Positions 1,893 to 37,400 of a stretch of 64,000 nucleotides of DNA are shown here, piece by piece. Positions within the stretch are counted from its first letter, which is position 1. Each line of letters opens with the position of its first letter. The position numbers and the translations under genes were made by a program. The notes beneath the pieces are model-generated. The model had not been told where the DNA came from. It ran no database searches and worked only from the letters and a program-made list of their open reading frames with translations. The stretch spans positions 3,798,001 to 3,862,000 of the forward strand of contig LR882958.1 of NCBI GenBank assembly GCA_904830895.1, in the 5' to 3' direction. The stretch is from Planktothrix rubescens CCAP 1459/22 (GTDB taxonomy: Bacteria; Cyanobacteriota; Cyanobacteriia; Cyanobacteriales; Microcoleaceae).

Positions 1893-2097
1893 AACCCACA
1901 TTCCGCAGATATTTAAGCAAATCTAATTGAAGATAAAACTTAGTGAATAAATAGCAATTATTTATGTTTAGTTAAATAGCGGTAAACTAGCTATATAATT
2001 TGATAGTAAAGCCTCGGAAGTTCACCGAAAAATTGGAATGGGTTCCTATTTTTTAGAATTAGTGGAAAATTTGACCCCTATCTGCGGAATGTGGGTT
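1893..2097. mobile_element. 205-bp MITE-like element with 19-bp terminal inverted repeats
   Basis: The segment starts with AACCCACATTCCGCAGATA (1893-1911) and ends with its exact reverse complement (2079-2097). It has no coding capacity. The same terminal sequence lies at the end of the IS1634-type element at 1257-1275, so this looks like a non-autonomous derivative moved by that transposase. Flanking bases (..TTAGT and TTGAA..) show no clear target duplication. Its right end overlaps the 3' end of the thioesterase NRPS gene and supplies that gene's last codons and stop. Confidence 0.6.
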
Positions 2098-6802: not shown

Positions 6803-6981
6803 TTCCCAATTGCCTCCCAAAGTTGTTGTTTGATTGTACTTAAAATGCGGGGTTCGCTCTTAGGATTAAAAAGTTCGGTCGTCATTATTCCCTGGGGTGA
6901 ACGATAGCGGAGCTTATCATTTTCAACCCAGATTTTAATCCCTAACCCGTTGAGATGAGCTAAAAATTCGACTGTTTTCAT
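6799..6981 (-). CDS. Free-standing TubC-type NRPS docking-domain peptide
   Basis: 60 residues. The first 36 (MKTVEFLAHLNGLGIKIWVE through MTTE) closely match the N-terminal docking domain of the final synthetase (MKVVEFLSYLKSLDIKLWIE). The remainder diverges and ends LSTIKQQLWEAIGK. TubC-type domains bind the acidic C-terminal tail of the previous synthetase. The gene overlaps the stop of the four-module synthetase by ATGA and its own stop overlaps the next start by ATGA, so it is in a coupled position. It may be the original start of the final synthetase, separated from it when the SnoaL-like gene entered. Whether it is expressed as a functional adaptor is unknown. Confidence 0.65.
   Translation of the reverse strand: MKTVEFLAHLNGLGIKIWVENDKLRYRSPQGIMTTELFNPKSEPRILSTIKQQLWEAIGK
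6806..6835 (-). repeat. 30-bp direct repeat, copy 2 (end of docking peptide gene)
   Basis: Copy of 6325-6354 with two mismatches. It encodes the TIKQQLWEAIG end of the docking peptide and carries the GGGAGG ribosome site for the SnoaL-like gene. Confidence 0.75.
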
Positions 6982-12900: not shown

Positions 12901-15900
12901 TTTTGAGCGATTTTTTCCCATTCTGTATCTAAACAGATAAGTTGTGCTTGATGTTCAGGAATAGACTTGACTAATTTTGCTTGAGTTACTAACACTTTTA
13001 CCTGAGAGTCTTCTAACATAAAGCTTAGGCGTTCTTGGGGATACTCAGGATCAAGCGGTACATAAGCCCCGCCTGCCTTGAGAATACCTAATAAACCCAC
13101 CATCATCTCTAAAGAACGCTCAACACAAATTCCGACTAAAGTATCAGCTTTTACGCCTAATTTCTGCAAATAATGGGCTAATTGATTAGCACGACCATTT
13201 AACTCAGTGTATGTTAATTGTTGATTCTCAAACACCACCGCGATCGCATCAGGGGTACGTTCTACTTGTTCCTCGAATAAATGATGAATACACTTAATTT
13301 GAGGATAATCAACTTGAGTATTGTTCCACTCAATTAATAACTGATTAGTCTCACTTTCTGTCAGTAAGGGTAATTGGGAAATCCGCGCTTGAGGATTAGC
13401 CACAATTCCCCCTAATAAGTTGAGAAAATGCCCTGCTAATCGCTCAATAGTGCCGCTATCAAATAAATCAGTATTATATTCCCAGACACCTTTTAAGCCA
13501 TCATCCGTGTGAACCATTGCTAAGGTTAAATCAAACTTAGCGGTTGTATTTTCTAAGGGCAAATCTGTCACCGTTAAGCCTGTCATTTCTATCTCAGACT
13601 TGGGTGTATTTTGTAGGACAAAAGCGACTTGAAAGAGGGGAGTATGGCTTAAATCCCGTTCGGGTTGCAACGCTTCTACTAACATTTCAAAAGGTAAATC
13701 TTGATGAGCGTAGGCATCCATTGCCACTTCCCGAACACGGGTTAATAACTGACTAAAACTCGGATTATCGGCTAAATTCGTCCGCAGGACTAAAGTATTG
13801 ACAAAAAAGCCGATTAAACCCTCAATTTCACTGCGATTACGGTTAGCAATGGGAGTTCCCACTAAAATATCACTAGACCCTGTATAACGATAAAGCAAAG
13901 CATCAAAAGCAGCCAACAGGGTCATAAATAATGTTACCCCTTGTTTGCGGCTCAATTCAGTCAAGGCTTGGCTGAGGGCGGGGGACAGGGAAAATTCTTG
14001 ATAGGCTCCGACAAAACTCTGCACCGCAGGTCGAGGGTGGTCTGTGGGAAGGGATAATAAAGCGGGGGCATCGGCTAGTTGATTTTGCCAGTAATTTAAT
14101 TGAGTTTGCAGTACATCCCCTTGTAACCATTGTCTTTGCCAAATCGCAAAATCTGCATACTGAATCGGCAAGGGAGCTAAATTGGCGGGCTGATTTTGAG
14201 GATAAGCATTGTATAGGGTGGTCAGTTCGTGAATAAATACTTCTATTGACCAACCATCACTGATGATGTGGTGCATACACACTAATAAGAGATGTTCCGT
14301 CTCAGATAGCACCACTAAAGTGATTCTGATTAAAGATTCTTTGGCTAAATCAAAGGGTTGAGTGGCTTGTTTTTGCTTTAATTGCTGTGTTTTTTCTGCT
14401 TGCTCCTGGATGGGTAAATCTTGTAAATCAACGACCGATATTGTCTCCCTTGTTGTTTGAATAACCTGGGTCGGTTGTCCATTAATGGTGACAAAATTAG
14501 TCCGTAATACCTCATGGCGATCGCAAATTGACCATAAACTTTGTTCTAAGGCTCCTTGGTTGAGGTTTCCTTGTAAACGCAATACCATCGGTATATTGTA
14601 CAAGGCACTATTGGGCTGCAACTGGTCTAAAAACCATAAACGCTGTTGAGCAAAAGATAGAGGTAGTTCTGTATCCTTAGTTCTCGGTAAAATCGGGGGG
14701 ACAGTTAGGGTTAGGTTTTGTTGCTGTAATTGTCCAACGAGATGGGCTAATTCTGCCACCGTCGCCGCCGCAAATAGGCTCCGCAAAGGGAGTTCTATTT
14801 TAAATAAACTACGAATACGGGACACCAATTGAGTTGCCAGTAAGGAATGTCCCCCAATTTCAAAGAAGTTATCATAAATTCCCACTTGCCCTACTTTTAG
14901 TACCTCTGTCCAAATTTGCACCAACATCTCCTCGATCGCATTGCGGGGTGCTACATATTGATCGCGGCGATCGCCTTCTAAATTCGGTGCAGGTAAGGCG
15001 CGGCGATCGACCTTACGATTAGTGGTCAGGGGTAAAGATTCCAGAAAAACAAAAGCTTGAGGAACCATGTAAAGGGGCAAATTACCAGCAAGGAACTGAC
15101 GTAGTTCACTAATCATCGGTATCCGTTCATAATGAGACACGATGTAGGCAACTAAATACTTTTGCCCTGGAATGTCTTCACGAATAATCACACAGGATGT
15201 CTGCACATCAAGATGTTGATTAAGTATCGCCTCAATTTCTCCTAATTCGATACGGAAACCGCGAATTTTAACCTGATTGTCAATTCGTCCAAAACATTCA
15301 ATGCTACCATTTGGCAGATAACGGGCTAAATCTCCCGTCTTATACAAACGATTGAAAGGTGCATCAGCAAAGGGATTGTCAATAAATTTTTCAGCCGTCA
15401 ATTCTGGACGATTCAGATAACCCCGCGCTAAACGAACACCGCAGAGATGCAGTTCTCCCTTAACTCCAATGGGGGCAGGTTGCAGATTTTGATCCAATAT
15501 ATAAGCCTTTGTATTGGCAATGGGACGACCAATCAGAACCGAATTCATTTTTTCTGACTGAGAATCCAGCAGATCATGAACAATCGCGGTTACAGATGCT
15601 TCGGTGGGGCCATAGACGTTAATACATTCAACCCGTTTTCCGACCCATTCACGCCAAATATTGACGGTTTCGGGTAAAACTGCATCTCCTCCCACTGCTA
15701 CGACCCGCAGACTGGATGGCACGGTGGCAGAAGATTGTGAAACGGCGATCGCCCATTCATGCCAATAGGCGGGAGTAATATTTAAGAGAGTTAGGCTTTC
15801 TTGTTCAATAAAATCGGCAAAATCTGTTAGGGTTGGGAACATTTGCCAGGGTCTTAAGACTACTGTGCCACCTTTTAACCAGGTGGGGAAAATTTCTTCC

Positions 15901-18900
15901 GCCGCTACATCAAAACCAAAGGACGCAAACTGTAAGACGCGATCGCTTTCCGTTAAACCAAATATTTCACTGATGCCCCAACTATGGTTAACCAAAGCTT
16001 CGTGGGTTAACATCACTCCTTTCGGTTTACCCGTTGAACCAGAAGTGTATAACACACAGAGTAAATTTTCTGGTATTACTTCACTGACGGGATTTTCCAT
16101 GCTTTGAACTGTCAAGATCTCGGCAGATTTATCTAATACGATGACCCCTACATCTTCTACGGGTAAAGAACTGAGTAAACTTTGTTGGGTTAGCAGTAGG
16201 GAAATTTTGGCATCTTCGGCCATGGAGGTTAACCTTTGCTGGGGATAATCGGGGTCTAAAGGGACATAGGCTCCTCCAGCTTTGAGAACGGCTAATAATC
16301 CGACAATCACTAACAGCGATCGCTCCAAATAAATGCCGACCAAAATCTCTGCTCCCACTCCCAGAGATTGTAAGTAATGGGCTAATTGATTGGCTTGAAT
16401 ATTTAACTGTTGATAGGTTAATTTCAGACCTTCAAATACTACTGCTACTGCATTCGGTGTTCGTTCTGCTTGTTCTTCAAATAAATGATGAACACATTGA
16501 TGGAAGGGATAATCTTTTTCCGTCCCATTCCAATCTTTTAATAATTGTTGTGACTCTACCTCTGTTAACAAGGGTAGTTGGGAAATTTGCTGTTGAGGGT
16601 TAGCAACAATTGCTTCTAGCAATGTCACAAAATTCCCCGCCAATCGTTCAATGGTGCTACGCTCAAACAGGTCTGTATTATACTCCCAGCTTCCCCTTAA
16701 TCCTGTATCGGTATTTTCCATTCCCAAGGTTAAATCAAACTTAGCCGTTGCATTTGCTGTTAACAAGGGACTGGCAGTTAATCCTATTAATTCTAACTGG
16801 GATAGGGGTTCATTTTGCAGTAAAAAGTCCACTTGAAAGAGGGGAGCATGGCTTAAATCTCGTTCTGGTTGTAGGACTTCTACTAACATCTCAAAAGGCA
16901 AATCTTGATGAGTGTAAGCATCCATTGCCATTTCTCGAACGCGAATTAATAACTCATTAAAACTAGGATTGCCTGACAAATCAGTTCGTAAAACTAAAGT
17001 ATTAACAAAAAAGCCGATTAATCCTTCCAATTCACTGCAATTACGGTTAGCAATAGGCGTTCCAATTAATATGTCTTCCTGTTCCGTATAACGGTAAAGT
17101 AAGACATCAAAAGCTGTTAACAGGGTCATAAATAAGGTGACACCCTGTTCTTGAGTCAGTTGGGTGAGTTTTTGGCTTAATTCCCAGGAAAGGGTAAAGG
17201 GAAGATGGGAACCAGCAAAACTCTGTACAGCAGGTCGTGGTCGGTCTGTGGGCAGGGATAATAAGGCGGGAGCCTCTGCTAACTGTTTTTGCCAGTAATC
17301 TAATTGACTTTGCAGAATATCTCCCTGTAACCACTGTTTTTGCCAAAGAGTGTAATCACCGTACTGAATCGGTAACGGCTTTAAAGATGAGGGCTGATTT
17401 TGAATGTATGCGTTATAGAGGTCGGTTAATTCCTGAAGAAAGACCCCCATTGACCAGCCATCACTGACAATATGATGCATACAGACTAATAAAATATGTT
17501 CTGTCTCAGATAAGATGACTAAGTTTGCTCTGATTAACGGGTCACGGGCTAAGTCAAAGGGTTGAATGGCCTGGTTTGGGATTAACTCCTGAGAGGCAAT
17601 TTCCTGTTCACTACTAGATAAGTGTTGTAAATCAACGATGTTCACTGTCCAGGGGGTTTGCGTTTGTATAACCTGAGTAGCGACACCATCAACGCTAATG
17701 AAGTTAGTCCTTAAGGCTTCATGGCGATCGCAAATTTCCTCTAAACTCTGGATCAAAACGTCTTGATTAAGGTTTCCCTCTAAACGCAAAGCGAGGGGAA
17801 TATTGTAAAAAGAACTATCGGACTCAAATTGATCTAAAAACCAAAGACGAGTCTGGGCAAAAGATAAAGGTAATTCTGTATCTTTTTCCCTGGGTAAAAT
17901 AGGGAGTTCCGTTCGTTCTTCCTGTTCCGAAACTCGTTTTATGACCTGGGCTAAGGCGGCGACGGTCGGGGCAACAAACAACTCCCGTAGGGGCATTTCT
18001 ACCTTGAACGTCTTACGGATGCGCGAAATCAGTTGAGTTGCTAATAATGAATGTCCGCCCAACTCAAAGAAGTTGTCGTGAATGCCCACCTGTTCAACTT
18101 TTAGGACTTTTACCCAAATAGAAGCCAAAATCTCTTCAATGGGATTACGCGGCGCAATGTATTGTTCTTCACTTTGGAAATCGGGAGCAGGTAAGGCACG
18201 GCGATCGACCTTACCATTAGATGTTAAGGGTAGGGATTCCAAAATGACAAAGGCACTAGGAACCATATACTCTGGTAACTGAGCTTTCAGAAATTGCCGC
18301 AGTTCATTAACACCAAGCAAACTTTGCTCTTGTTGGGCAGAAATTCCCTCTTGGGGGATAACGTAGGCAACTAAACGTTTTTGCTCTGTCTCATCTTCCC
18401 TGGCCATAACAATAGCGGTTTTGACTGCGCTGTGCTGACTGAGAACAGTTTCAATTTCTCCTAATTCAATGCGGAAACCCCGAATTTTTACTTGATTATC
18501 AATTCGTCCTAAATACTCAATATTGCCATCGGGTAAATAACGCGCTAAGTCTCCCGTTTTATAGAGACGAGAATCTGAGTAATTACTAAAAGGATCAGGA
18601 ATAAATTTCTCTTGGGTTAACTCTGGACGATTGAGATAACCTCTGGCTAACCCCGCTCCGCCAATATGTAATTCTCCAGCTACCCCCACAGGAACAGGTT
18701 GCAAGAAAGCATCAAGAATATAAACCTGAATATTACTGATGGATCGCCCAATCGGAACATTGGTTGCACTTGGGGAAGTAAATTCGTATAAAGTCGTTAC
18801 AATAGTTCCTTCCGTTGGACCGTAACGATTAAATAGTTTAGGAAGAGAGGAATTATTAGCTGTAATTGTATGCCATTGCTTGACTTTTGATTGTTGAATG

Positions 18901-21107
18901 GCTTCCCCTCCAACCATAATTAGTTTTATATTGGTGATGATTTGGAGAGCAGTAGGAGTCAGTTCAGAGGCTAATTGATGCCAATAAGCAGTAGGAAAAC
19001 CTAAAACTGTTAATTGCCATTTTTGACAACATTGCCAAAAATCCTCACTAGAGCGCAACATATCTTCTGTTCGCAGTACCAAGGTCGCACCCGATAACAA
19101 ACCACAAAAGATTTCTTCAACGGAAGCATCAAAGCAGATAGAGGAAAATTGCAGAATTTGATCATCTGATGTAAAATTGTACTCTCGAATAGCAGTCAGG
19201 ATATAGTTGACTATTGAGCGATGTTCAATCATTACCCCTTTGGGTTTACCCGTCGAGCCAGAAGTATAAATAATGTAGGCTAGATTGTGCTGATCAACTT
19301 CTACAATCGGGTTTACGGTACTTTGGTTTGCGATTATTGACCAGTCTTGATCTAAACAGATAGTTGTTCCTTGAAATTGAGGAAGTTGCCCAAGGAATTG
19401 AGATTGCGTCAGTAAAATACTAAGTTGACTATCTTCAAGAAGATAGGTAATTCGGTCTTTTGGATAATTAACATCCAAAGGAACATAAGCTCCCCCTGCT
19501 TTAAGGATTCCCAAGATACCGATGATCATCTCTAGGGAACGTTCGACAAAAATTCCCACCAGTCCATCCGCTTTTACTCCCAAAGATTGTAGGTAATGCC
19601 CCAATTGATTCGCACGATTATTTAATTCTTGATAGGTTAAAAATTCATTTTCTAATCTAACGGCGATCGCATCAGGATTTAGTTTTACTTGTTGTTCAAA
19701 TAATTGATGCAGACACAATTCAGGCTTGTAGTCAATTTGAGTCTGATTCCAATCAACTAATAATTGACAACGCTCACTTTCTGTCAATAGGGGTAATTGG
19801 GCAATGGATTGTTCTGGATTAGCAATAATCCCTTTTAATAAGTTAATAAAATGCCCTGACAATCGCTCAATTGTGCTTTGATTAAACAAGTCTGTATTAT
19901 ATTCCCAACTCGTAGTTAATCCAGCTTCTTTTATCTGTATAGATAAACTTAGATCAAATTTAGCTGTCTTAAATTCCAACGGCTGATGGGTGGCTTTTAT
20001 TCCCTCTAAATCTATGGCATTTAGAACTTCATTATCTAACCCAAACATTACCTGAAATAAAGGAGTATAACTCATATTTCTTTCAGGTTGTAAGGCTTCC
20101 ACTAACATTTCAAACGGCAAATCTTGATGGTCGTAAGCATCGGTTGCGGTCTCTCTTACCTGTTTTAATGCCTCGCTAAAACTTGGATTTCTTGCTAAAT
20201 CTGTTCTTAAGACCAATGTATTAACAAAAAAGCCGATCAACCCATCCAGTTCACTACGAGTACGGTTAGCAATGGGAGTCCCAACTAAAATATCCGTTTC
20301 TCCCGTGTAGCGATTGAGTAGGATATTAAAGGCAGTCAAGAGGGTCATAAATAAGGTGACACCTTTTTCACGACTCAACTTATTTAACCCTTGACTAAGT
20401 TCTGGGGAAAGGATACATCTGATTCTATCCCCCTCAAAACGTTGTTCTGGGGGGCGGGGGCGATCGCTGGGTAGATGTAATAAGGCAGGTGCGGCAGATA
20501 ACTGTTTTTGCCAGTAATTTAACTGATTTTGCAGGATTTCTCCCTGTAAATATTCCCTCTGCCAGAGGGCAAAGTCGGCATACTGGATCGGTAACTCTTT
20601 TAAAAGAGGATTTAAACCTTTAGTATAGGCATTATAAAGAGTTGTCAATTCCTGAATAAATACCCCCATTGACCAACCATCAGAGACAACATGGTGCATA
20701 CAAATCAGCAACAAATTTTCTGTGTCTGATAACTCAAGTAGGGTAGCCCGAATGAGGGATTCATTCGCTAAATCAAAGGGTTGATGGCTGTGAATTTCTA
20801 GCCATTGTTTGAGGGCATTCTCTTCTCGATAGTTTTTGCTTTCCTTATCATTAATAATGGTTAATTTCCAATTGCTTTCTGGTTTGATTATCTGCACAGG
20901 ATTTCCGTCAAGGGTAAGGAAATTGGTGCGGAGGGATTCGTGACGCTGAATAATTTCTTGTAAACTCTTTTCTAGGACATCTATTTTGAGTGTTCCCTCT
21001 AAATGCAAGGCAAAGGGAACATTATAAAAAGAACTGTTGGGTTCTAATTGATCTAAGAACCATAAACGCTGTTGAGCATAGGATAGGGGCAATTCTTCGT
21101 AATTCAT
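6978..21107 (-). CDS. ociB: Cyanopeptolin synthetase with Ahp module and N-methyltransferase (4 modules)
   Basis: 4,709 residues, four C-A-PCP modules, the last with an N-methyltransferase. PCP serines lie near residues 1020, 2088, 3156 and 4648. C motifs are MHHVVSDG, MHHIVSDG, MHHIISDG and IHHIAADG. The NMT (about 4125-4410) shows VLEIGCGSGLLLF. Pocket codes: module 1 DAEGMGRIV (unassigned), module 2 DVENAGVVT (the signature reported for the Ahp position), module 3 DFWNIGMVH (Thr), module 4 DASTIAGVC (Tyr, N-methylated). This is the Thr-X-Ahp-Y-N-MeAro-Z core of cyanopeptolins. The A10 motif of module 2 is NRK instead of NGK. The start overlaps the previous gene by ATGA and the C-terminus is an acidic docking tail (DDYEEGEL). 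Repeat-derived peptides interrupt modules 3 and 4. Confidence 0.92.
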   Translation of the reverse strand: MNYEELPLSYAQQRLWFLDQLEPNSSFYNVPFALHLEGTLKIDVLEKSLQEIIQRHESLRTNFLTLDGNPVQIIKPESNWKLTIINDKESKNYREENALKQWLEIHSHQPFDLANESLIRATLLELSDTENLLLICMHHVVSDGWSMGVFIQELTTLYNAYTKGLNPLLKELPIQYADFALWQREYLQGEILQNQLNYWQKQLSAAPALLHLPSDRPRPPEQRFEGDRIRCILSPELSQGLNKLSREKGVTLFMTLLTAFNILLNRYTGETDILVGTPIANRTRSELDGLIGFFVNTLVLRTDLARNPSFSEALKQVRETATDAYDHQDLPFEMLVEALQPERNMSYTPLFQVMFGLDNEVLNAIDLEGIKATHQPLEFKTAKFDLSLSIQIKEAGLTTSWEYNTDLFNQSTIERLSGHFINLLKGIIANPEQSIAQLPLLTESERCQLLVDWNQTQIDYKPELCLHQLFEQQVKLNPDAIAVRLENEFLTYQELNNRANQLGHYLQSLGVKADGLVGIFVERSLEMIIGILGILKAGGAYVPLDVNYPKDRITYLLEDSQLSILLTQSQFLGQLPQFQGTTICLDQDWSIIANQSTVNPIVEVDQHNLAYIIYTSGSTGKPKGVMIEHRSIVNYILTAIREYNFTSDDQILQFSSICFDASVEEIFCGLLSGATLVLRTEDMLRSSEDFWQCCQKWQLTVLGFPTAYWHQLASELTPTALQIITNIKLIMVGGEAIQQSKVKQWHTITANNSSLPKLFNRYGPTEGTIVTTLYEFTSPSATNVPIGRSISNIQVYILDAFLQPVPVGVAGELHIGGAGLARGYLNRPELTQEKFIPDPFSNYSDSRLYKTGDLARYLPDGNIEYLGRIDNQVKIRGFRIELGEIETVLSQHSAVKTAIVMAREDETEQKRLVAYVIPQEGISAQQEQSLLGVNELRQFLKAQLPEYMVPSAFVILESLPLTSNGKVDRRALPAPDFQSEEQYIAPRNPIEEILASIWVKVLKVEQVGIHDNFFELGGHSLLATQLISRIRKTFKVEMPLRELFVAPTVAALAQVIKRVSEQEERTELPILPREKDTELPLSFAQTRLWFLDQFESDSSFYNIPLALRLEGNLNQDVLIQSLEEICDRHEALRTNFISVDGVATQVIQTQTPWTVNIVDLQHLSSSEQEIASQELIPNQAIQPFDLARDPLIRANLVILSETEHILLVCMHHIVSDGWSMGVFLQELTDLYNAYIQNQPSSLKPLPIQYGDYTLWQKQWLQGDILQSQLDYWQKQLAEAPALLSLPTDRPRPAVQSFAGSHLPFTLSWELSQKLTQLTQEQGVTLFMTLLTAFDVLLYRYTEQEDILIGTPIANRNCSELEGLIGFFVNTLVLRTDLSGNPSFNELLIRVREMAMDAYTHQDLPFEMLVEVLQPERDLSHAPLFQVDFLLQNEPLSQLELIGLTASPLLTANATAKFDLTLGMENTDTGLRGSWEYNTDLFERSTIERLAGNFVTLLEAIVANPQQQISQLPLLTEVESQQLLKDWNGTEKDYPFHQCVHHLFEEQAERTPNAVAVVFEGLKLTYQQLNIQANQLAHYLQSLGVGAEILVGIYLERSLLVIVGLLAVLKAGGAYVPLDPDYPQQRLTSMAEDAKISLLLTQQSLLSSLPVEDVGVIVLDKSAEILTVQSMENPVSEVIPENLLCVLYTSGSTGKPKGVMLTHEALVNHSWGISEIFGLTESDRVLQFASFGFDVAAEEIFPTWLKGGTVVLRPWQMFPTLTDFADFIEQESLTLLNITPAYWHEWAIAVSQSSATVPSSLRVVAVGGDAVLPETVNIWREWVGKRVECINVYGPTEASVTAIVHDLLDSQSEKMNSVLIGRPIANTKAYILDQNLQPAPIGVKGELHLCGVRLARGYLNRPELTAEKFIDNPFADAPFNRLYKTGDLARYLPNGSIECFGRIDNQVKIRGFRIELGEIEAILNQHLDVQTSCVIIREDIPGQKYLVAYIVSHYERIPMISELRQFLAGNLPLYMVPQAFVFLESLPLTTNRKVDRRALPAPNLEGDRRDQYVAPRNAIEEMLVQIWTEVLKVGQVGIYDNFFEIGGHSLLATQLVSRIRSLFKIELPLRSLFAAATVAELAHLVGQLQQQNLTLTVPPILPRTKDTELPLSFAQQRLWFLDQLQPNSALYNIPMVLRLQGNLNQGALEQSLWSICDRHEVLRTNFVTINGQPTQVIQTTRETISVVDLQDLPIQEQAEKTQQLKQKQATQPFDLAKESLIRITLVVLSETEHLLLVCMHHIISDGWSIEVFIHELTTLYNAYPQNQPANLAPLPIQYADFAIWQRQWLQGDVLQTQLNYWQNQLADAPALLSLPTDHPRPAVQSFVGAYQEFSLSPALSQALTELSRKQGVTLFMTLLAAFDALLYRYTGSSDILVGTPIANRNRSEIEGLIGFFVNTLVLRTNLADNPSFSQLLTRVREVAMDAYAHQDLPFEMLVEALQPERDLSHTPLFQVAFVLQNTPKSEIEMTGLTVTDLPLENTTAKFDLTLAMVHTDDGLKGVWEYNTDLFDSGTIERLAGHFLNLLGGIVANPQARISQLPLLTESETNQLLIEWNNTQVDYPQIKCIHHLFEEQVERTPDAIAVVFENQQLTYTELNGRANQLAHYLQKLGVKADTLVGICVERSLEMMVGLLGILKAGGAYVPLDPEYPQERLSFMLEDSQVKVLVTQAKLVKSIPEHQAQLICLDTEWEKIAQNITSNPESAAKPENLTYIIYTSGSTGKPKGVLVNHSNVVRLFAATDSWYHFNPQDVWTLFHSYAFDFSVWEMWGALLYGGRLIIVPYLVTRSPESFLNLLCQEKVTILNQTPTAFRQLIQAEQATDNDLSLRLVIFGGESLEINSLQPWFDRHGDQFPQLVNMYGITETTVHVTYRPLSRADVNSTASVIGRPLPDLQVYLLDEYLQPVPVGVPGEMYVGGAGVTRGYLNRPELTTERFIPSLFENSNPQPPTPKLYKTGDLARYLPDGNIEYLGRIDNQVKIRGFRIELGEIEAVIGQNEDVQSACVIAREDNPGDKRLVAYVVPQPEITLTIDEIRQFLKAKLPDYLVPNAFVILEALPLTPNGKIDRRALPAPDLQGKGEYIAPRNPIEEKIAQIWAEVLKLERVSIEDNFFELGGHSLLATQVISRCQEAFEIALPLRYLFESPTIAQLSAVILKELQTGSRLKLPPIVPLNRQDDIPLSWAQERLWFVNQLEGESGAYTIDLTMRLLGNLNVKALEKAFQAIIQRHEPLRTQFKLKDNKPIQAITSSINFTLSIVQSQPLQVEQLITEAASEPFDLANGSVLRVKLWQVGADEYVLLLAIHHIAADGWSLGVLIDELSAYYRSFSTGTKADLPTLPIQYADFAVWQRQWLTNEVLERQLSYWKQQLKGVPLLHQLPSDRPRPAIQTFRGGTEKLQLDNKLTQQLKKLSQKSGSTLFMTLLAGFAVLLSRYSGQTDLVIGSPIANRNRTEIEKLIGFFVNSLVLRFDLSQEPTFEDFLAQVRQTTQNAYDHQDLPFEMLVEELQIERHLDRNPLIQIVFALQNAPTEPWDLPGVKVEDLASGLDSVRVDLEVYLWDVPEGLGGFCSYNRDLFDAETIVRMMTHFKALLAAIGSNPQQPVALLPLLTPPEHQLLEEWNETKADYSYDKCIHQLVEEQAERTPDAIAVVFENQQLTYAQLNNRANQLAHYLRSLGVETEVIVGLCVERSLEMIVALIGILKAGGAYLPLDPEYPPARLEFMLFDSQIPLLLTQHSLIDKLPNHQGQTLFLEEIWEKTAQPSQDNLTAKVTPSNLANVIYTSGSTGKPKGVMVEHKGLCNLAQAQIETLGVHPSSRVLQFASFSFDACISEILMALGAGATLYLGTKEALMPGLPLMERLRDHAITHITLPPSALAVLPWENLPSLQTIIVAGEACSPELVKKWSQGRNFFNGYGPTEGSVCTAIAKCTPFDEKITIGRPIPNVQVYILDPHLQAVPIGVPGELHIGGAGLARGYLNRPELTAEKFISNPFVSLDPPLTPLDKGGEQPSKLYKTGDLARYLPDGQIEYLGRIDNQVKVRGFRIELGEIEAVLGQHPLVQEAIVIARADHASDHDHDKLNTNLVGYLVPALKGEVLPEQLAQWQSEYVSDWQTIYEDSYRQSQSTTDDPTFNISGWNSSYTGQAMTAAEMREWVENTVSRILAGKPQRVLEIGCGSGLLLFPVAKHCQEYWGADYSSATIDNLERLCGTIEGLAGKVRLFHRTADNLAGIPQAAFDTVVINSVVQYFPSVDYLLQVLEGVMKAIAAHGKIFLGDIRSLPLLEPYHAAVQLSRAAADKTLEQWQKQVNQSVATEEELLIEPQFFIALKQRFPQISWVEIAPKRGQAENELTQFRYDVTLHLGNDVQKTVIPWSNWQRDGFSLAKLQDQLKLGQAEWLGIRDVPNQRVQEALQILDWLENPPVVSTVGELRQLLKEKPRMGINPEQMWQLGEKFGYTVHLSWWEGSQDGSFDLVFHRQSSILESAMSAVDSQPYPSFWDNETVIAKSWTDYTNNPLYGKLVQKLVPQVREFVQQKLPSYMVPQAFVLLNALPLTPNGKIDRRALPTPDTATRNLATSFLAPRTPIETQMGQIWSEVLGLERIGIKDNFFELGGHSLLATQVISRSRDLFSVELSLQNLLEYPTIANLAQIIELLAVAQQGQPAITESLDDYEEGEL
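8983..9024. repeat. C/G-rich cyanobacterial repeat inside the N-MeTyr A domain
   Basis: CCCCCCTTATCAAGGGGGG (8986-9004) and the following GTTAGGGGGGGATC are a typical dispersed cyanobacterial repeat. Read in frame it encodes DPPLTPLDKGG in ociB module 4, inserted in the loop before the LYKTGDL core motif. Confidence 0.75.
12139..12163. repeat. TTGGGGG heptamer tandem repeat inside the second Thr A domain
   Basis: Three TTGGGGG units and a partial fourth, encoding PQPPTP in ociB module 3 before LYKTGDL. The site corresponds to the insertion points at 8983 and 21801, so this loop tolerates repeat invasion. Confidence 0.7.
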
Positions 21108-24100
21108 TTTCTTCTCCTCGGTAAAATGGCTGTAACGATGGGGGCTAATTTTTGCTGTTTTAACTGTTCAATTCCTTGGGCTAATTCAGCTAGGGTTGCT
21201 GTGTTGAATAACTGACGTAGGGGAAGCTCAATTTTCAGGCGATCGCGAATCTGTGCTACTAATTGAGTCGCCAGTAGGGAATGTCCTCCAAGTTCAAAGA
21301 AGTTATCATTGATTCCCACTTTCTCTACTTTTAGAACTTCTGACCAAATTGTTGCCAGTATTTCCTCCATCGGGGTACGAGGGGCAACATATTTGTCTGA
21401 TACTTCACTACCTGATTCAGGTGGCGGTAAAGCACGACGGTCTATTTTACCATTAGTAGTAAGGGGTAAGGCTTCTAAGATAACGAAAGCATTAGGAACC
21501 ATGTAATCAGGTAATTTAGCTTTCAGAAATTGGCGGATTTCGTCAATTATGATTGTTATTTCGGGCTGGGGTACGATATATGCGACAAGACGCTTATCCC
21601 CCGCCGTATCATCCCAAACTAGCACCACCGTCTCCCAAATCTGGGGATGAGATGCCAATAATGCCTCAATTTCCCCTAATTCAATACGGAATCCCCGAAT
21701 CTTAACTTGATTATCAATGCGCCCTAAATATTCTAACTCGCCATTAGGCAAATAACGGGCTAAATCCCCCGTTTTATACAATTTTGCTCCTCCTTGAGTG
21801 CCTCCCTTATTAAGGGGGGGTAGGGGGGGATCAAAAGGACTAGAAATAAACCTTTCTGTGGTCAATTCAGGACGATTGAGATAACCTTTTGCCACTCCTG
21901 CACCGCCCACATACATTTCCCCAGGCACCCCAACGGGTACGGGTTGTAAATATTGATCGAGTAAATACACCTGTAAATCGGGAAGAGGACGACCAATGAC
22001 GCTGGCTGTACTATTGACATCAGCCATACTTAAGGGGCGATAGGTAACATGAACGGTAGTTTCCGTAATTCCGTACATATTAACTAATTGGGGAAGTTGG
22101 TCGCCGTGTCGGTCAAACCAAGGCTGTAAACTGTTGATTTCTAAAGATTCTCCGCCAAAAATTACCAAACGTAAACTTAAATCGGTCTCTGTGACTGAAT
22201 CCTTCCCAACCTCTCTTAATAAGGGGGAAATGTCCCCTTTTACGGATTCTTCAGCTTGAATTAACTGGCGGAAAGCGGTAGGGGTTTGATTGAGAATCGT
22301 TACTTTTTCTTGACACAATAACTCATAAAATGATTCGGGAGAACGAGTCACTAAGTAAGGGACTATTACCAGTCGTCCACCATAGAGTAAAGCCCCCCAC
22401 ATTTCCCACACGGAAAAGTCAAAAGCGTAAGAATGGAATAGAGTCCAGACATCTTGGTAATTGAAATGATACCAGGAGTCTGTTGCCGCAAACAGTCGCA
22501 CGACATTAGCGTGATTGACTAAAACCCCTTTCGGTTTACCCGTAGAACCCGATGTATAGATAATATAGGTTAAATTATCGGGTTTTACTCCGCTTTCAGG
22601 GTTTGACGTGATATTTTGAGCGATTTTTTCCCAGTCCGTATCTAAACAGATAAGTTGTGCTTGATGTTGAGGAATAGACTCGACTAATTTTGCTTGAGTT
22701 ACTAATACTTTCACCTGAGAGTCTTCTAACATAAAACTAATCCGTTCAAGCGGATATTTTGGGTCAAGGGGAACATAAGCACCACCCGCTTTTAATATCC
22801 CCAATAATCCCACAATCATCTCTAAAGAGCGTTCTACACCAATTCCCACCAATTCATCAGGTTTAATACCCAAAGATTGCAAATAATGTGCTAACTGATT
22901 AGCCCGACAATTTAACTCATTATAGGTTAATTGTTGCCCTTCAAATACCACCGCTACAGCATTAGGAGTCCGTTCAACCTGCTCCTCAAATAACTGATGA
23001 ATACACTTGTCATCAGGATAATCTACCTCAGTATTATTCCAATCAATTAATAACTGTTGTTGTTCAACTTTTGTTAATAAAGGTAATTGAGAAACTCGCT
23101 CCCTCGGATTAGCAATAATCCCCTCAAGTAAAGTCATAAAATGACCGTTCATTCGTTCAATAGTCTCGCTATTAAATAGGTCAGTATTATATTCCCAAAC
23201 CCCCATTAATCCCGTCTCTGTATTTTGCATTGACAAGGTTAAATCAAACTTAGCTGTTTCACCTTCTAAGGGTAAAGAATTAACAGTCAAACCGCTCATT
23301 TCTACTTCAGATAAAGGAGTATTTTGAAGTACAAACATTACCTGAAATAGAGGAGTATGACTAAGATTTCTCTCTGGTTGTAACGCTTCTACTAACATTT
23401 CAAAAGGTAAATCTTGATGAGCATAAGCACCTAAAGACATTTCCCGCACTCTCATCAATAATTCCTGAAAACTAGGATTTTCTGAACAGTCAGTTCTCAT
23501 TACTAAGGTGTTCACAAAAAAGCCGATTAAACTCTCTATTTCACGACGGTTACGGTTAGCTATAGGTGTCCCTATTAAGATGTCTGATTGTCCTGTATAA
23601 CGATAAAGTAATGTCCCATAAACTGCTAACAATGTCATAAACATTGTCACCCCTTGTTGCTGACTTAATTGCGTTAGCTTTTGAGTAAGTTCAAGGGATA
23701 GTTGAAACTCTTGATATGCACCTGTAAACGTTTGTATTACTGGACGGGGTTTATCTGTTGGTAAGGGTAAGAAAGTTGGTGCGTCTGCTAGTTGTTTTTG
23801 CCAGTAATTTAATTGGTTTTCTAAGACTTCTCCTTGTAACCATTGTCTTTGCCAAACTGCAAAATCAGCGTACTGAATTGGTAAGGGTTTTAAGGGTGAA
23901 GGTTGACCCTGATTATAAGCATTATATAACGCTGTTAATTCTTCAATAAATACACCCATTGACCAACCATCACTAATCACATGGTGCAGACATAATAATA
24001 ACCAATACTCGTTATTATTCAGCACGATTAAAGTGGCTCTTACTAATGCTTCATTAGCTAAATCAAAGGGTTTAAATGATTCTCCCTTAACTAAATTAGT

Positions 24101-27100
24101 TGCAGCAATTTCTTGTTCTTCTGGTGATAAATGCTGCAAGTTAATTACTGATACTGTCCAATTTGTTACTGTTTGAATAACCTGAGTTGGTTGTCCATTG
24201 ACGTTAACAAAGTTGGTGCGTAATGCTTCGTGACGTTGAATAATTTCCTCTAAACTTTGTATCAAAGCTGCTTGATTAAGATGGCCTTGCAAACGTAAAG
24301 CTACAGGGATATTATAGAAAGCGCTATTAGTTTCTAATTGGTCTAAAAACCATAAACGAGTTTGTGCATAAGACAATAATAATTCAGATTGTTCACCCCT
24401 TGGTAATATGGGGGGTGCGGATAGAGTTAAATCCTGTTGCTGTAACTGTTGAATTTGCTGTCCTAATTCTTCAATTGTTGGTGCTGCAAATAGACTACGC
24501 AAAGGGATTTCTATTTGTAAATTAGTGCGAATACGGGAGATGAGTTGAGTAGCTAATAATGAGTGTCCTCCTAGTTCAAAGAAGTTATCATTAATGCTTA
24601 CTTGTTTGACCTTTAAAACCTCAGACCAAATTGTTACCAGTATTTCTTCAATAGGGTTGCGTGGTAAGATAAATTTGTCTGTTCTTTCGTAACTTTGTTC
24701 GGGTTCAGGTAAAGCGCGACGGTCAATTTTACCATTAGGTGTTAAGGGTAATGATTCCAGTATTACGAAAGCACTGGGAATCATATATTCTGGCAGCTTT
24801 TCCTTGAGGAATTGCCGTAATTCATTGGGGGTTGGTGTTGCATCTTTTTGAGGGACAATATAGGCAACTAAACGTTTATTTCCTGGTGTATCTTCGCAGG
24901 CAATAATAACCGATGATTGCACTTGAGGATTTTGAGTTAATACTGTCTCAATTTCTCCTAATTCTATACGGAATCCCCGTATTTTAACTTGATTGTCAAT
25001 GCGTCCTAAATATTCAATATTACCGTCAGGTAAATAACGCGCTAAGTCCCCCGTTTTATAGAGTCGAGAATCTGGGTAATTACTAAAAGGATTAGGAATG
25101 AATTTTTCTTGTGTTAATTCTGGACGGTTGAGATAACCTCTTGCTAATCCTGCTCCACCGATGTGTAATTCTCCTGGAATACCTACAGGTACTGGTTGAA
25201 GATTGGAGTCTAAAATGTAGATTTGTGTGTTAAAGATTGGACGACCAATGGGGATACGTTGTCCATACATTTCTCTCTGACAATTCCAAAAAGTTACATC
25301 AATACAACATTCTGTCGGTCCATAAAGATTGCACAAATTCACATTTAGCTGGCTAAATAATTTCTCTTGCAAAGCAACTGGCAAGATTTCACCACCACAG
25401 AAGACTCGTTTGAGTAACTGACAATTTTCGATTCCTCCCTGTTCTAAAAGCATTTGCAGTAAGGATGGCACAAGTTGAACAGTAGTTACTTGCTGTTGGG
25501 CAATTGTTTTTAAGAGGTAATCGCTGTCAGTATGACCTCCTGGTTGAGCTATTAACAACTGTCCACCTACTAATAAAGGAGCATAAAATTCCCAAACTGA
25601 CGCATCAAAACTAAAGGAAGTTTTTTGCAGAACTCTGTCCGCTCTAGTTAGGGGGAATGTTTCCTGCATCCAGAACATATGATTGGACAGGTTACTGTGG
25701 GACAGCATTACCCCCTTCGGTTGACCAGTAGAACCTGATGTATAAATAACATAAGCTAAATTAGTTGCTTGTATATCAGTAATTAGATTGTCCCGACTGA
25801 ACTGAAAAATCAACTCCCAGTCAGCATCTAAACAAATAAGTTGCGCTTGATGTTCAGGTAATTTATTAATCAATTTCTGTTGAGTTAATAACACATTAAC
25901 AGCAGCATCTTCTAACATGAAGCTTAAACGTTCAAGCGGATATTCAGGGTCAAGAGGAACATAAGCACCACCCGCTTTTAATATCCCCAATAATCCCACA
26001 ATCATTTCTAAAGAGCGTTCAACACAAATCCCAACTAATTCATCAGCTTTTACTCCCAAAGATTGTAAATAATGTGCTAATTGATTAGTCCGACAATTTA
26101 ACTCATTATAGGTTAATTGTTGCCCTTCAAATACCACCGCTACAGCATTAGGAGTCCGTTCAACCTGCTCCTCAAATAACTGATGAATACACTTGTCATC
26201 AGGATAATCTACCTCAGTATTATTCCAATCAATTAATAACTGTTGTTGTTCAACTTTTGTTAATAAAGGTAATTGAGAAACTCGCTCCCTCGGATTAGCA
26301 ATAATCCCCTCAAGTAAAGTCATAAAATGACCGTTCATTCGTTCAATAGTCTCGCTATTAAATAGGTCAGTATTATATTCCCAAACCCCCATTAATCCCG
26401 TCTCTGTATTTTGCATTGACAAGGTTAAATCAAACTTAGCTGTTTCACCTTCTAAGGGTAAAGAATTAACAGTCAAACCGCTCATTTCTACTTCAGATAA
26501 AGGAGTATTTTGAAGTACAAACATTACCTGAAATAGAGGAGTATGACTAAGATTTCTCTCTGGTTGTAACGCTTCTACTAACATTTCAAAAGGTAAATCT
26601 TGATGAGCATAAGCACCTAAAGACATTTCCCGCACTCTCATCAATAATTCCTGAAAACTAGGATTTTCTGAACAGTCAGTTCTCATTACTAAGGTGTTCA
26701 CAAAAAAGCCGATTAAACTCTCTATTTCACGACGGTTACGGTTAGCTATAGGTGTCCCTATTAAGATGTCTGATTGTCCTGTATAACGATAAAGTAATGT
26801 CCCATAAACTGCTAACAATGTCATAAACATTGTCACCCCTTGTTGCTGACTTAATTGCGTTAGCTTTTGAGTAAGTTCAAGGGATAGTTGAAACTCTTGA
26901 TATGCACCTGTAAACGTTTGTATTACTGGACGGGGTTTATCTGTTGGTAAGGGTAAGAAAGTTGGTGCGTCTGCTAGTTGTTTTTGCCAGTAATTTAATT
27001 GGTTTTCTAAGACTTCTCCTTGTAACCATTGTCTTTGCCAAACTGCAAAATCAGCGTACTGAATTGGTAAGGGTTTTAAGGGTGAAGGTTGACCCTGATT

Positions 27101-30100
27101 ATAAGCATTATATAACGCTGTTAATTCTTCAATAAATACACCCATTGACCAACCATCACTAATCACATGGTGCAGACATAATAATAACCAATACTCGTTA
27201 TTATTCAGCACGATTAAAGTGGCTCTTACTAATGCTTCATTAGCTAAATCAAAGGGTTTAAATGATTCTCCCTTAACTAAATTAGTTGCAGCAATTTCTT
27301 GTTCTTCTGGTGATAAATGCTGCAAGTTAATTACTGATACTGTCCAATTTGTTACTGTTTGAATAACCTGAGTTGGTTGTCCATTGACGTTAACAAAGTT
27401 GGTGCGTAATGCTTCGTGACGTTGAATAATTTCCTCTAAACTTTGTATCAAAGCTGCTTGATTAAGATGGCCTTGCAAACGTAAAGCTACAGGGATATTA
27501 TAGAAAGCGCTATTAGTTTCTAATTGGTCTAAAAACCATAAACGAGTTTGTGCATAAGACAATAATAATTCAGATTGTTCACCCCTTGGTAATATGGGGG
27601 GTGCGGATAGAGTTAAATCCTGTTGCTGTAACTGTTGAATTTGCTGTCCTAATTCTTCAATTGTTGGTGCTGCAAATAGACTACGCAAAGGGATTTCTAT
27701 TTGTAAATTAGTGCGAATACGGGAGATGAGTTGAGTAGCTAATAATGAGTGTCCTCCTAGTTCAAAGAAGTTATCATTAATGCTTACTTGTTTGACCTTT
27801 AAAACCTCAGACCAAATTGTTACCAGTATTTCTTCAATAGGGTTGCGTGGTAAGATAAATTTGTCTGTTCTTTCGTAACTTTGTTCGGGTTCAGGTAAAG
27901 CGCGACGGTCAATTTTACCATTAGGTGTTAAGGGTAATGATTCCAGTATTACGAAAGCACTGGGAATCATATATTCTGGCAGCTTTTCCTTGAGGAATTG
28001 CCGTAATTCATTGGGGGTTGGTGTTGCATCTTTTTGAGGGACAATATAGGCAACTAAACGTTTATTTCCTGGTGTATCTTCGCAGGCAATAATAACCGAT
28101 GATTGCACTTGAGGATTTTGAGTTAATACTGTCTCAATTTCTCCTAATTCTATACGGAATCCCCGTATTTTAACTTGATTGTCAATGCGTCCTAAATATT
28201 CAATATTACCGTCAGGTAAATAACGCGCTAAGTCCCCCGTTTTATAGAGTCGAGAATCTGGGTAATTACTAAAAGGATTAGGAATGAATTTTTCTTGTGT
28301 TAATTCTGGTCTGTTAAGATAGCTTCTGGCTAACCCTGCCCCCCCAATATGCAATTCTCCTGGTACACCAATCGGAACTGGCTGTAAGTAAGAGTCTAAA
28401 ATATAAATTTGAGTATTAGAGACAGGACGACCAATAGAAACTTTCTCCTCGTCCTTAGTAAATCTCGCTACAGTCGCACAAACAGTTGTTTCCGTTGGCC
28501 CATAAGCATTAAAGAAATTTCGTCCTTTTGACCACTCAGTTATTAATTTTGCGGTACAAGCTTCACCACCGACGGTTAGAGATTGTAAATTAGATAAGGT
28601 TGCTTGAGGTAAAACAGACAAAGCCGAAGGAGATAAAAAAGCGTGAGAAATTTGGTTCTCCGTTAACAAATCAACCAATATTTGACTGGGTAATAGGGTT
28701 TCTTTTTGGGCTAAGTACAAACTAGCACCTGCGGCTAAAGCAGTGGCAATTTCACCAATAGATAAATCGAAACTTAGGGAACCGAACTGGAGTACACGGC
28801 TATGATTTTGAATTTGAAAAACGTCACTCCAAGCCAAAGCCAGATTAACAATGCTTCTATTTTCAATCATCACCCCTTTCGGTTTTCCTGTTGAACCAGA
28901 AGTATAAATCACATAGGCTAAACTATCAGTTTTAGTTTGAGAACTGGGATTATCGGTTAATAAGGGTGAAAAACTTTGTTCATCTAGATACAATATTTGA
29001 TTAGGATTTTTTAGATTAGTTAATAGTAATTTTTCTTTAAGAAAACCTTGAGTGAGCAACAATAATATACCAGAATCTTCTAAGATAAACTGAAGGCGTT
29101 CTGGTGGATATTCGGGGTCAAGGGGTAGATAGGCAGCACCCGCTTTAAGAATGCCTAATATTCCTATTATCATTTCTAAAGAACGTTCGACACAAATTCC
29201 CACTAAAGTATCTGGTTTAATCTGATAGTTTTGACGCAGATAATGGGCTAATTGATTAGCACGATTATTTAATTCTCGATAAGTTAAGGATTCATTTTCA
29301 TAAGTTACTGCTACAGCATCAGGAGTCCGTTCTACTTGCTCCTCAAATAACTGATGAATACACTTATCAACAGGGTAATCTACTTGAGTATTATTCCACT
29401 CAATTAATAACTGTTTTTGCTCTAATTGTGTCAATAATGGCAATTCTGCAAGAGTTTCTTTCTGATTTGTGACAATTCCTTCTAACAGTGTCAGAAAATG
29501 ACCTGTCATCCGTTCAATTGTATCTGGGCTAAACAAATCTGTATTATATTCCCAGACTCCCACCAGTCCAGCATCAGTGTTTTCCATTGCTAAACTTAAA
29601 TCAAATTTAGCAGTATTGGTTTCTACCTGAACAGAACTGATACTTAACCCTGTTAACTCTACCGTCGATAGAGGCGTATTTTGAAGGACAAACATCACCT
29701 GAAATAAGGGTGTATAGCTGATATCCCTTTCCGGTTGTAATGCTTCCACTAGCATTTCAAAGGGTAAGTCTTGATGAGAGTAGGCTTCTAAGGCTACTTC
29801 TCGCACCTGTGCCAATAATTGCTCAAAACTGGAATTTTCTGCTAAATTAGTTCTTAATACTAAGGTATTGACAAAAAAGCCAATTAACCCTTCTATTTCA
29901 CTATGATTACGGTTCGCTATGGGTGTTCCGACTAAAATATCTGTTTGTCCAGTATAGCGATACAATAAGACATCAAAGGCGGCAAACAGGGTCATAAACA
30001 AGGTAACGCCTTGCTCTTGACTCAATTTTGTCAGTTTTTGGCTTAATTCTGGTGAGAGGATAAATTCTTGATGTGCGCCGACAAAGGTTTGTACTGCTGG

Positions 30101-33221: not shown

Positions 33222-35285
33222 ATGTCACCCCAAGTCTCTCAAGATCAAGCGACAACTAATCCTATCTCCAATGTCACCAAATTTTGGGCAAGTGTAAAGG
33301 CGATCGCGGCCCCCTATTGGTATCCGACTATGGCGGGGGGAAGAGCTTTTTCTGATGTGATTAAAGCTTGGGCAATGCTGATTTTATTAATCGGAGTAAT
33401 TCTAACCGTTGTGGGTTTAAATGCCTTCAATAGTTTTGTGAGTAATTATTTAGTTGATGTCATTATTGCCAAGGATGATTTTGATAAATTTGTAAAAACT
33501 TTGGTGGTTTTCGCGGTTGGACTGCTCTTGGTCACGCTTTTGGTGGGATTGCTTAAATTTCTCAGGAAAAGAATCGCCCTGGATTGGTATGAATGGCTCA
33601 ATAGCTGGATTCTCGCAAAATATTTCAGCGATCGCGCTTATTACAAAATTAATTTTAAATCCGATTTAGATAACCCAGATCAACGCCTATCCCAGGAAAT
33701 TGAGCCGATTACCAGTAACGCCCTCAGTTTTTTTACGGTTTGCCTAGAAAATGTCCTAGAGATGATCACTTTTTTAGTGATTCTCTGGTTAATTTCCCCT
33801 TTTGTTGCCATTCTTTTAGTCGTTTGGACAGTCCTCGGTAACGCCATTGCTATCTATCTAAACCAAGCCTTAAATAAAATTACCCAAGAAGAATTAGAAC
33901 TTAAAGCTAATTACAATTATGCTCTAACTCATGTTCGGACTCATGCAGAATCAATCGCTTTCTTTGATGGAGAAACCCAAGAATTAAGTATTATTCAGCG
34001 TAGATTTAATAATATTTTGAACAGTGCTAAACGTAAAATTGATTGGGAGAGAGGCACAGAAATATTTAATCGGGGCTATCAGGCGGCGATCCAAGTATTT
34101 ACCTTTGTCATTCTAGGGCCTTTGTATATGAATAGTGAGGGCATTAGCTTCGGACAGGTCGGGCAAGCCTGTTTAGCAGCTAATTTGTTTGCTAGTGCGC
34201 TAGGGGAATTAATCGGTGAATTTGGCACTTCGGGACGATTTAGCAGTTATGTTGAACGTCTATCGGAATTTTCTCAAGCCCTAGAAGAAGTCGTTAAACA
34301 ACCCGAAAATGTAAGCACGATTAAGACCATCGAAGAAAACCATTTTGCCTTTGAAAATGTGACTTTGCAAACTCCCGATTATGAACAGGTAATTGTTGAA
34401 AACCTTTCCCTTTCTGTTCAGCCTGGGCAAGGTCTATTGATTGTCGGGCCGAGTGGTCGGGGTAAAAGTTCCTTGCTTCGGGCGATCGCTGGTTTATGGA
34501 ATGCAGGAACAGGCCGATTAGTGCGTCCCCCCCTAGAAGAAGTATTATTTTTGCCCCAACGTCCCTACATAATATTAGGAACCTTGCGAGAACAGTTACT
34601 TTATCCCAATCGCAATCAAGAAAAAAGTGAGGCAGAATTAAGAGAAGTTTTACAACAAGTCAATCTCCAAAATCTGTTAAATCGAATCAATGGTTTTGAT
34701 ACAGAAGAGTCTTGGGAAAACATTTTATCTCTAGGAGAGCAACAACGTTTGGCTTTTGCCAGGGTATTAATTACCCGTCCCAGTTTTACTATCCTAGATG
34801 AAGCCACCAGTGCTTTGGACTTCAAAAATGAGGGGAATTTATATCAACAATTACAAAAAACTAACACAACTTTTATTAGTGTCGGACATCGGGAAAGTCT
34901 CTTTAACTATCATCAATGGGTTTTAGAACTCTCTGAGGATTCCCATTGGCAACTGCTCACAGTTCAGGACTATCGCCGACAAAAAGCTAAAGAAATTAGT
35001 AGTGTTCCTGGCGATAATTCCCAAGCTAGAGTCGAAAATTCACCTCATCAGCAAGCCGCAATGAAACCTCAAATTAATTCTTCCCAGGAACTCCTCCTTG
35101 AATCTCCAACGACAACAATCCTGACAGAAGAAGGACTTTCCCACGCACAAATGACGAAATTAAGCAACTATTCCGTCAGTAGTATTAGAAACCTAGCCAG
35201 TCGGGGAAAATCCATTACGGGAAATGATGGACTTACCTATCACTATGATAAAGACCCTAAAATCTTAAAATGGCTAAGGATTTAG
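33222..35285 (+). CDS. ABC exporter, SbmA/BacA-like membrane domain fused to ATPase (cyanopeptolin export)
   Basis: 687 residues. Several membrane segments occupy the first 350 residues (e.g. MLILLIGVILTVVGLNAF and FVVGLL-type stretches), followed by an ATPase with Walker A GPSGRGKS near 409, FLPQRPYIILGTLREQL, signature LSLGEQQRL near 503, Walker B FTILDEATSALD near 523 and switch GHR. This layout is the ABC_membrane_2 type found with cyanobacterial peptide clusters, and cyanopeptolin clusters are known to carry such a transporter. It probably exports the peptide. It is divergent from ociA. About 85 residues follow the ATPase and end in a segment (SITGNDGLTYHYDKD) also present in the second exporter. 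It is closely paralogous to the exporter at 61771-63807. Confidence 0.85.
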   Translation: MSPQVSQDQATTNPISNVTKFWASVKAIAAPYWYPTMAGGRAFSDVIKAWAMLILLIGVILTVVGLNAFNSFVSNYLVDVIIAKDDFDKFVKTLVVFAVGLLLVTLLVGLLKFLRKRIALDWYEWLNSWILAKYFSDRAYYKINFKSDLDNPDQRLSQEIEPITSNALSFFTVCLENVLEMITFLVILWLISPFVAILLVVWTVLGNAIAIYLNQALNKITQEELELKANYNYALTHVRTHAESIAFFDGETQELSIIQRRFNNILNSAKRKIDWERGTEIFNRGYQAAIQVFTFVILGPLYMNSEGISFGQVGQACLAANLFASALGELIGEFGTSGRFSSYVERLSEFSQALEEVVKQPENVSTIKTIEENHFAFENVTLQTPDYEQVIVENLSLSVQPGQGLLIVGPSGRGKSSLLRAIAGLWNAGTGRLVRPPLEEVLFLPQRPYIILGTLREQLLYPNRNQEKSEAELREVLQQVNLQNLLNRINGFDTEESWENILSLGEQQRLAFARVLITRPSFTILDEATSALDFKNEGNLYQQLQKTNTTFISVGHRESLFNYHQWVLELSEDSHWQLLTVQDYRRQKAKEISSVPGDNSQARVENSPHQQAAMKPQINSSQELLLESPTTTILTEEGLSHAQMTKLSNYSVSSIRNLASRGKSITGNDGLTYHYDKDPKILKWLRI

Positions 35286-37388: not shown

Positions 37389-37400
37389 GGATTAAACTCC

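Follow-up and report, generated by a model that had tools for sequence, protein, structure and literature searches.

The closest described counterpart of the cyanopeptolin synthetase (oci) cluster analysed here is that of Planktothrix rubescens NIVA-CYA 98, for which Rounge et al. (2009; PMC2739229) reported a contig of the cyanopeptolin cluster to be present in two repeats, based on PCR, Sanger sequencing and a twofold read depth. The NIVA-CYA 98 cluster comprises eight modules instead of seven, the domains C2 and C3 of its ociA are identical, and a rearrangement of modules by intra-cluster recombination was considered likely (PMC2739229). Compared by this published description, the present cluster is like that of NIVA-CYA 98, most likely a different strain, in having eight modules and identical ociA C2 and C3 domains. 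According to the accessible part of that report, both the observation and its main interpretation have been in print since 2009 for NIVA-CYA 98; the same part gives neither a repeat length nor borders at A-core edges.

Duplication or triplication of ociA modules has also been named as a source of cyanopeptolin variants (PMC13253841, citing PMC9366434), and large ociA insertions were described in some isolates (PMC9398003). The former account concerns a change of module number in ociA, as here, and in its accessible part comes without borders or copy identity; PMC9366434 itself does not use the word "module" in its main text. The exchange of A cores has been described as largely restricted to the core itself, leaving the C-A linker and the A subdomain in place (Baunach et al. 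2021; PMC8097286). Such exchange units swap parts of modules whereas ociA probably gained a module in the present case, the preference for certain borders being alike. In the wollamide system a duplication was likewise combined with a new A core, which was acquired by intragenomic A-domain recombination (PMC9205934). However, that case involves the duplication of a whole gene, a branched pathway and a donor in the same genome, while in ociA one module within one gene is concerned and no close donor appeared among the matches listed from the genomes searched.

As far as a limited literature search on these points allows, the present analysis adds the exact borders of the repeat at the A-core edges, the comparison of its links with those of a seven-module cluster, the missing donor and a tentative one-step crossover model of the gain. 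As such an arrangement has been on record since 2009 (PMC2739229), the value of the locus lies in being a well-resolved example of a known process.

Cluster organisation and the repeat in ociA

In the window, a stretch of 64,000 nucleotides of Planktothrix rubescens DNA, the oci cluster spans 33.2 kb (2059-35285) and encodes 3+4+1 = 8 A domains in OciA, OciB and OciC, corresponding to eight modules (Table 1). Its affiliation to the cyanopeptolin synthetases is indicated by the code DFWNIGMVH closing OciA, by DVENAGVVT together with a methyltransferase in OciB, by the thioesterase in OciC and by the ABC transporter gene. Seven modules were originally described for oci, as opposed to the eight found here; seven are also present in the only further P. 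rubescens genome compared (G001).

Table 1. Features of the oci cluster, with positions and strands as in the window.
Feature	Position	Strand	Basis
ociC, last module with thioesterase	2059..6321	-	ORF, Pfam, codes
ociB, four modules, including DVENAGVVT (Ahp precursor) and methyltransferase	6978..21107	-	ORF, Pfam, codes
ociA, cyanopeptolin synthetase subunit, 3,944 aa	21104..32938	-	ORF; Pfam; motifs, codes
A core of module 3, DFWNIGMVH, Thr	21872..22903	-	codes
Repeat copy 2; its junction with the Thr core is shared with G001	22904..25123	-	identity
A core of the extra module, DAWQFGLID, Gln	25124..26089	-	Pfam, code
Repeat copy 1, read before copy 2	26090..28309	-	identity, Pfam
A core of module 1, DLGFTGAVC, Hty; linked to copy 1 by a junction shared with G001	28310..29257	-	codes, aligned extent
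ABC transporter gene, called ociD in the literature	33222..35285	+	ORF, Pfam

OciA consists of an N-terminal loading region with a PCP followed by three NRPS modules (Hty, Gln, Thr), and Pfam detected three Condensation, three AMP-binding and four PP-binding stretches in the protein. The codes of the three A cores correspond, in order, to Hty, Gln and Thr, which bears out an earlier claim made from the sequence alone that the cores enclosed by the repeat differ (Hty-like, Gln, Thr); one position of the Hty code fell into an alignment gap and was read by eye. DAWQFGLID denotes Gln, and DVENAGVVT the Ahp precursor. For Hty and Thr, the codes match those tabulated in PMC2533009.

Direct base comparison of the two copies revealed 2220 matches in 2220 bases at an offset of 3,186 bases, and the maximal exact tract between them ends precisely at the borders listed in Table 1. 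The sequence-only reading was therefore right in describing an identical 2,220-bp repeat at an offset of exactly one module (3,186 bp), and the full base alignment that it had proposed as a check is free of scattered differences. Both copies lie in frame and comprise 740 codons each (codons 1544-2283 for the copy read first in the gene, codons 2606-3345 for the second). Beyond the repeat the identity declines on the low-coordinate side to 88, 83, 63 and 62 per 100 bases in successive rows, and on the high-coordinate side to 80 (row 25100, which still includes 24 repeat bases) and 50 (row 25200) and then to background. In the reading direction of the gene, the 120 bases just before the repeat are 74% alike between the copies, and the 150 bases just after it are 89% alike.

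Pfam analysis of the 740-aa segment placed AMP-binding_C at residues 57-132, PP-binding at 161-222 and Condensation at 245-692; the segment contains the A subdomain, the PCP, the C domain and the first residues of the next A core. The spacer of 966 bases (322 residues) between the copies matches positions 32-384 of the 384 positions of the Pfam AMP-binding profile. Based on this placement of repeat and spacer the copied unit is a whole module minus its A core. The segment retains the A subdomain and the C-A linker, features of an A-core exchange unit, and its borders lie near the A1 and A6 motifs.

The segment was further used to search the whole genome (five contigs, 5,698,378 bases, including the chromosome contig of 5,464,396 bases and contig C2 of 78,572 bases), which gave 47 matches with 40 of 91 candidates scored. 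Among these, only the two copies matched at 100%; the remaining full or near-full-length relatives are 67-70% identical, a partial relative covering 1,642 query positions reaches 72%, and short similar pieces reach at most 85% (65 bases). Taking these values into account, neither ordinary module homology nor chance can yield the repeat. A plasmid collection gave two records, neither of them with 80% of the segment. A comparable repeat (at least 95% identity over at least 500 bases) was found in none of 66 related loci (0/66), a count biased by the selection of the loci by similarity, by the location of several of them on common contigs, by flanks of at most 10 kb and by the possible collapse of such repeats in short-read assemblies.

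Apart from ociA, the cluster has a Thr core at position 5 (in ociB, approximately 12.1-13.0 kb), at which G001 carries a different core and a methyltransferase. This Thr core is about 91% like that of ociA along most of its length, its preceding flank about 75%. Position 5 bears a second sign of A-core replacement in the cluster.

Origin of the Gln-selecting module

The ociA gene of G001 comprises two modules with the same Hty core, a single copy of the segment and the same Thr core. The comparison with an ociA having one module fewer, which had been proposed along with the repeat, could thus be run on one genome of the same species, and it agrees with the proposal. Two adjacent identical copies at a one-module offset, together with a single copy in one close relative, are features of a recent tandem duplication. 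The G001 segment differs from the copies at 107 of 2220 sites (0.048), which affect 93 codons (61 synonymous, 32 non-synonymous). Between the copies themselves there are 0 differences in 2220 bases (95% upper bound 0.00135 per site), so that the copies look far younger than the divergence of the strains at ociA. The Hty core, along approximately 450 bases before the segment, and the Thr core, beyond approximately its first 171 bases, show 0-3 differences to G001 per 90 bases. Since the links between Hty core and segment and between segment and Thr core are common to both strains, both new junctions are those flanking the Gln core.

Taken together, these findings make it probable that ociA recently gained a Gln-selecting eighth module by unequal homologous recombination within A domains. 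The ancestral gene would have had the order Hty core, segment (A subdomain, PCP, C domain, A start), Thr core, and the event would have left the Gln core and an identical second segment between the first segment and the Thr core, with the Gln core either brought in or swapped in. We infer gain rather than loss as the direction, which is the simplest one in this lineage, and the seven-module relative is then likely to represent the state before the event. If so, ociA shows how an assembly line in nature has very recently grown by one module with its reading frame kept.

A plain tandem duplication does not fit, as it would also have copied an A core and the middle core is neither Hty-like nor a Thr/Hty hybrid. 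The middle core being no copy of the Hty or Thr core, it either would have been replaced after a duplication or would stem from a crossover between a Hty-first and a Gln-first gene, and both fit the data. From the sequences of the genomes compared, three courses would be indistinguishable: a duplication with subsequent replacement of the core, one unequal crossover between a Hty-type and a Gln-type allele, and a later homogenisation. Of the sequence-only reading, which had proposed a module duplication or gene conversion with A-core replacement, the recent gain and the joining of different A cores by identical linker parts are supported. Its further suggestion that the borders of the repeat show where recombination cuts A domains stands insofar as the borders coincide with the A-core edges. 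The borders of perfect identity, however, only bound the crossover points, since the bases outside are still 74% (5') and 89% (3') alike. With this qualification, the points at which the identity stops hint at where A cores can naturally be linked to the remainder of a module while the enzyme stays intact.

A one-step gain may tentatively be considered as a special form of the preferred account, and we rate it as possible rather than probable. Two ociA alleles of one population, one Hty-first (Hty-segment-Thr) and the other Gln-first (Gln-segment-Thr), would have undergone a single unequal crossover that fused the beginning of the Thr A domain from one allele with the beginning of the Gln A domain from its counterpart. 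The Gln core and the second copy of the segment would thereby have been inserted together, without any later core replacement. The model requires a seven-module, Gln-first strain with the same segment, and none was present in the genomes compared. If it is true, swaps of A cores at position 1 would feed the gain of modules.

The zero differences in 2220 bases could also result from gene conversion, in which case a cluster already having eight modules with diverged segments would recently have had one segment copied over by the other. Conversion can hide the history of a duplication (PMC9205934), and in a Symploca locus (L088) the order X-Gln-Thr occurs with segments around the Gln core that are 73% alike. 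This order is therefore not always recent, which lends some weight to conversion. On the other hand, G001 and two published Planktothrix oci clusters have seven modules, and the identical tract extends all the way from one A core to the next, so that a conversion tract would need to have ended at both core borders. We therefore regard conversion as unlikely.

Loss of the Gln unit would reverse the direction: an eight-module form with identical segments would be the older one, and recombination between the copies would lead exactly to the Hty-segment-Thr form of G001. However, the zero differences between the copies argue for their youth, and seven modules appear as the simpler ancestral state, considering that a figure legend gives seven C domains for the published Planktothrix and Microcystis clusters and six for Anabaena, and that a related cluster in another species of the genus (G007) has seven A domains, one of them before Thr. 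The latter is a weak outgroup, as its module order after Thr and Ahp differs from that of oci. A loss thus seems quite unlikely. A duplicated contig end, an assembly error that could likewise produce 2.2 kb of perfect identity, is highly improbable, given that the copies sit between different A cores with the reading frame kept, that 10-kb PacBio libraries are described for PCC7821, the strain inferred for this genome (PMC9366434), and that a repeat in the oci cluster of NIVA-CYA 98 was checked by PCR, Sanger sequencing and depth (PMC2739229).

The differences to G001 are unevenly distributed, with 33 in the first 1380 bases of the segment and 74 in the last 840, and in the Thr core 21 of 90 sites differ at 22733-22822. 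This clustering suggests that one of the strains underwent another exchange, and the tract is left unexplained by a simple gain of the module. If the change took place on the side of the present strain, the copying would be later than the origin of the divergent tract, as both copies carry the same variants.

Source of the Gln core and predicted product

The 966-base Gln core was searched in 195 genomes of the order, including its own, of which 145 gave a match with two candidates scored per genome. Among the matches listed no close donor was detected, the best others showing 74-76% identity over at least 700 bases and shorter ones up to 80% over 379 bases. From its own genome, the matches listed (2 of 3) were the Gln core itself and, at 78% over 379 bases, the beginning of the Thr A domain. 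Four 120-base windows from the middle of the core had no match in the 64-kb window or in the stretches compared from G001 (40 kb) and from G007 (32 kb).

A derivation of the Gln core from the neighbouring Hty or Thr core is ruled out by the codes and by these unmatched middle windows. The 966-base core thus being no copy of either, the module was not copied as a whole including its A core. The Gln core presumably came from outside the present genome.

Clusters with Gln in first or second position were sought among the 66 related loci, 29 of which carry a DVENAG or DFWN code. A Desmonostoc locus (L052) has the order Gln-Thr-Thr-Ahp and the Symploca locus the order Ile/Leu-Gln-Thr; the cores of both are 74-76% like the Gln core described here.

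With regard to the product, two studies of Planktothrix peptides (PMC10891876 and PMC8398151) do not mention Gln in their main texts. The codes predict that the synthetase inserts Gln after Hty and before Thr. For the lactone glycerate-Hty-Gln-Thr-Leu-Ahp-Thr-MeTyr-Ile we calculated an [M+H]+ of 1112.55, and 984.49 without Gln; oscillapeptin G, the cyanopeptolin of P. rubescens PCC7821 (PMC9366434), is listed at 1112.7 (PMC4368186). As glycerate, Leu (position 3) and MeTyr were assumed and not read from the codes DAEEMGRIV and DASTIAGVC, the match in mass serves as a consistency check only, which other compositions could fit as well. NIVA-CYA 98 has likewise been reported to make oscillapeptin G. 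Judging from the reported product, the function of the enlarged synthetase was probably kept.

Loading region and first C domain of OciA

In G001, the genome of the same species carrying a seven-module oci cluster, Pfam analysis detected an FkbM-type methyltransferase and a sulfotransferase domain in the loading region of the cyanopeptolin synthetase subunit OciA. Neither domain is present in the loading region of the window's OciA. The alignment of both regions revealed one 798-base gap and further gaps. The absence of both domains is consistent with an unmodified glycerate in the predicted product.

In the first C domain about one quarter to one half of the sites per 90 bases differ from G001, perhaps because it is directly preceded by a PCP instead of the sulfotransferase domain.

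Further differences from G001

One tract of ociA, comprising the C domain end and the start of the Thr A domain, differs from G001 far more than the flanking sequence (74 of 840 sites within the 2,220-bp repeated segment; 21 of 90 at 22733-22822).

Furthermore, comparison with G001 revealed a second replaced A core, at position 5 of ociB, where the window encodes a Thr core and G001 the code DAFFFGV with an inserted methyltransferase. This Thr core is approximately 91% like the ociA Thr core over most of its length.

Features in the window
Feature	Coordinates	Remark
ociB position 5	12100-13100	A-core replacement
C domain end and Thr A domain start	22733-23739	ociA
First C domain	~29340-30960	OciA
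Loading region as compared	30001-32938	against L035:7652-11851 of G001
Aconitase-like, isocitrate/isopropylmalate dehydrogenase-like and homocitrate-synthase-like genes	35679-39627	between the two peptide clusters

Neighbouring genes and a distant parallel

The aconitase-like and associated genes presumably represent an hph-type route to homotyrosine, which could be used by both peptide clusters.

In Symploca sp. SIO2E9 (locus L088) an ORF starting at 1082 (3222 aa) encodes the modules Ile/Leu-Gln-Thr with diverged linker segments. Compared with Hty-Gln-Thr in OciA, it is a distant parallel in module order.
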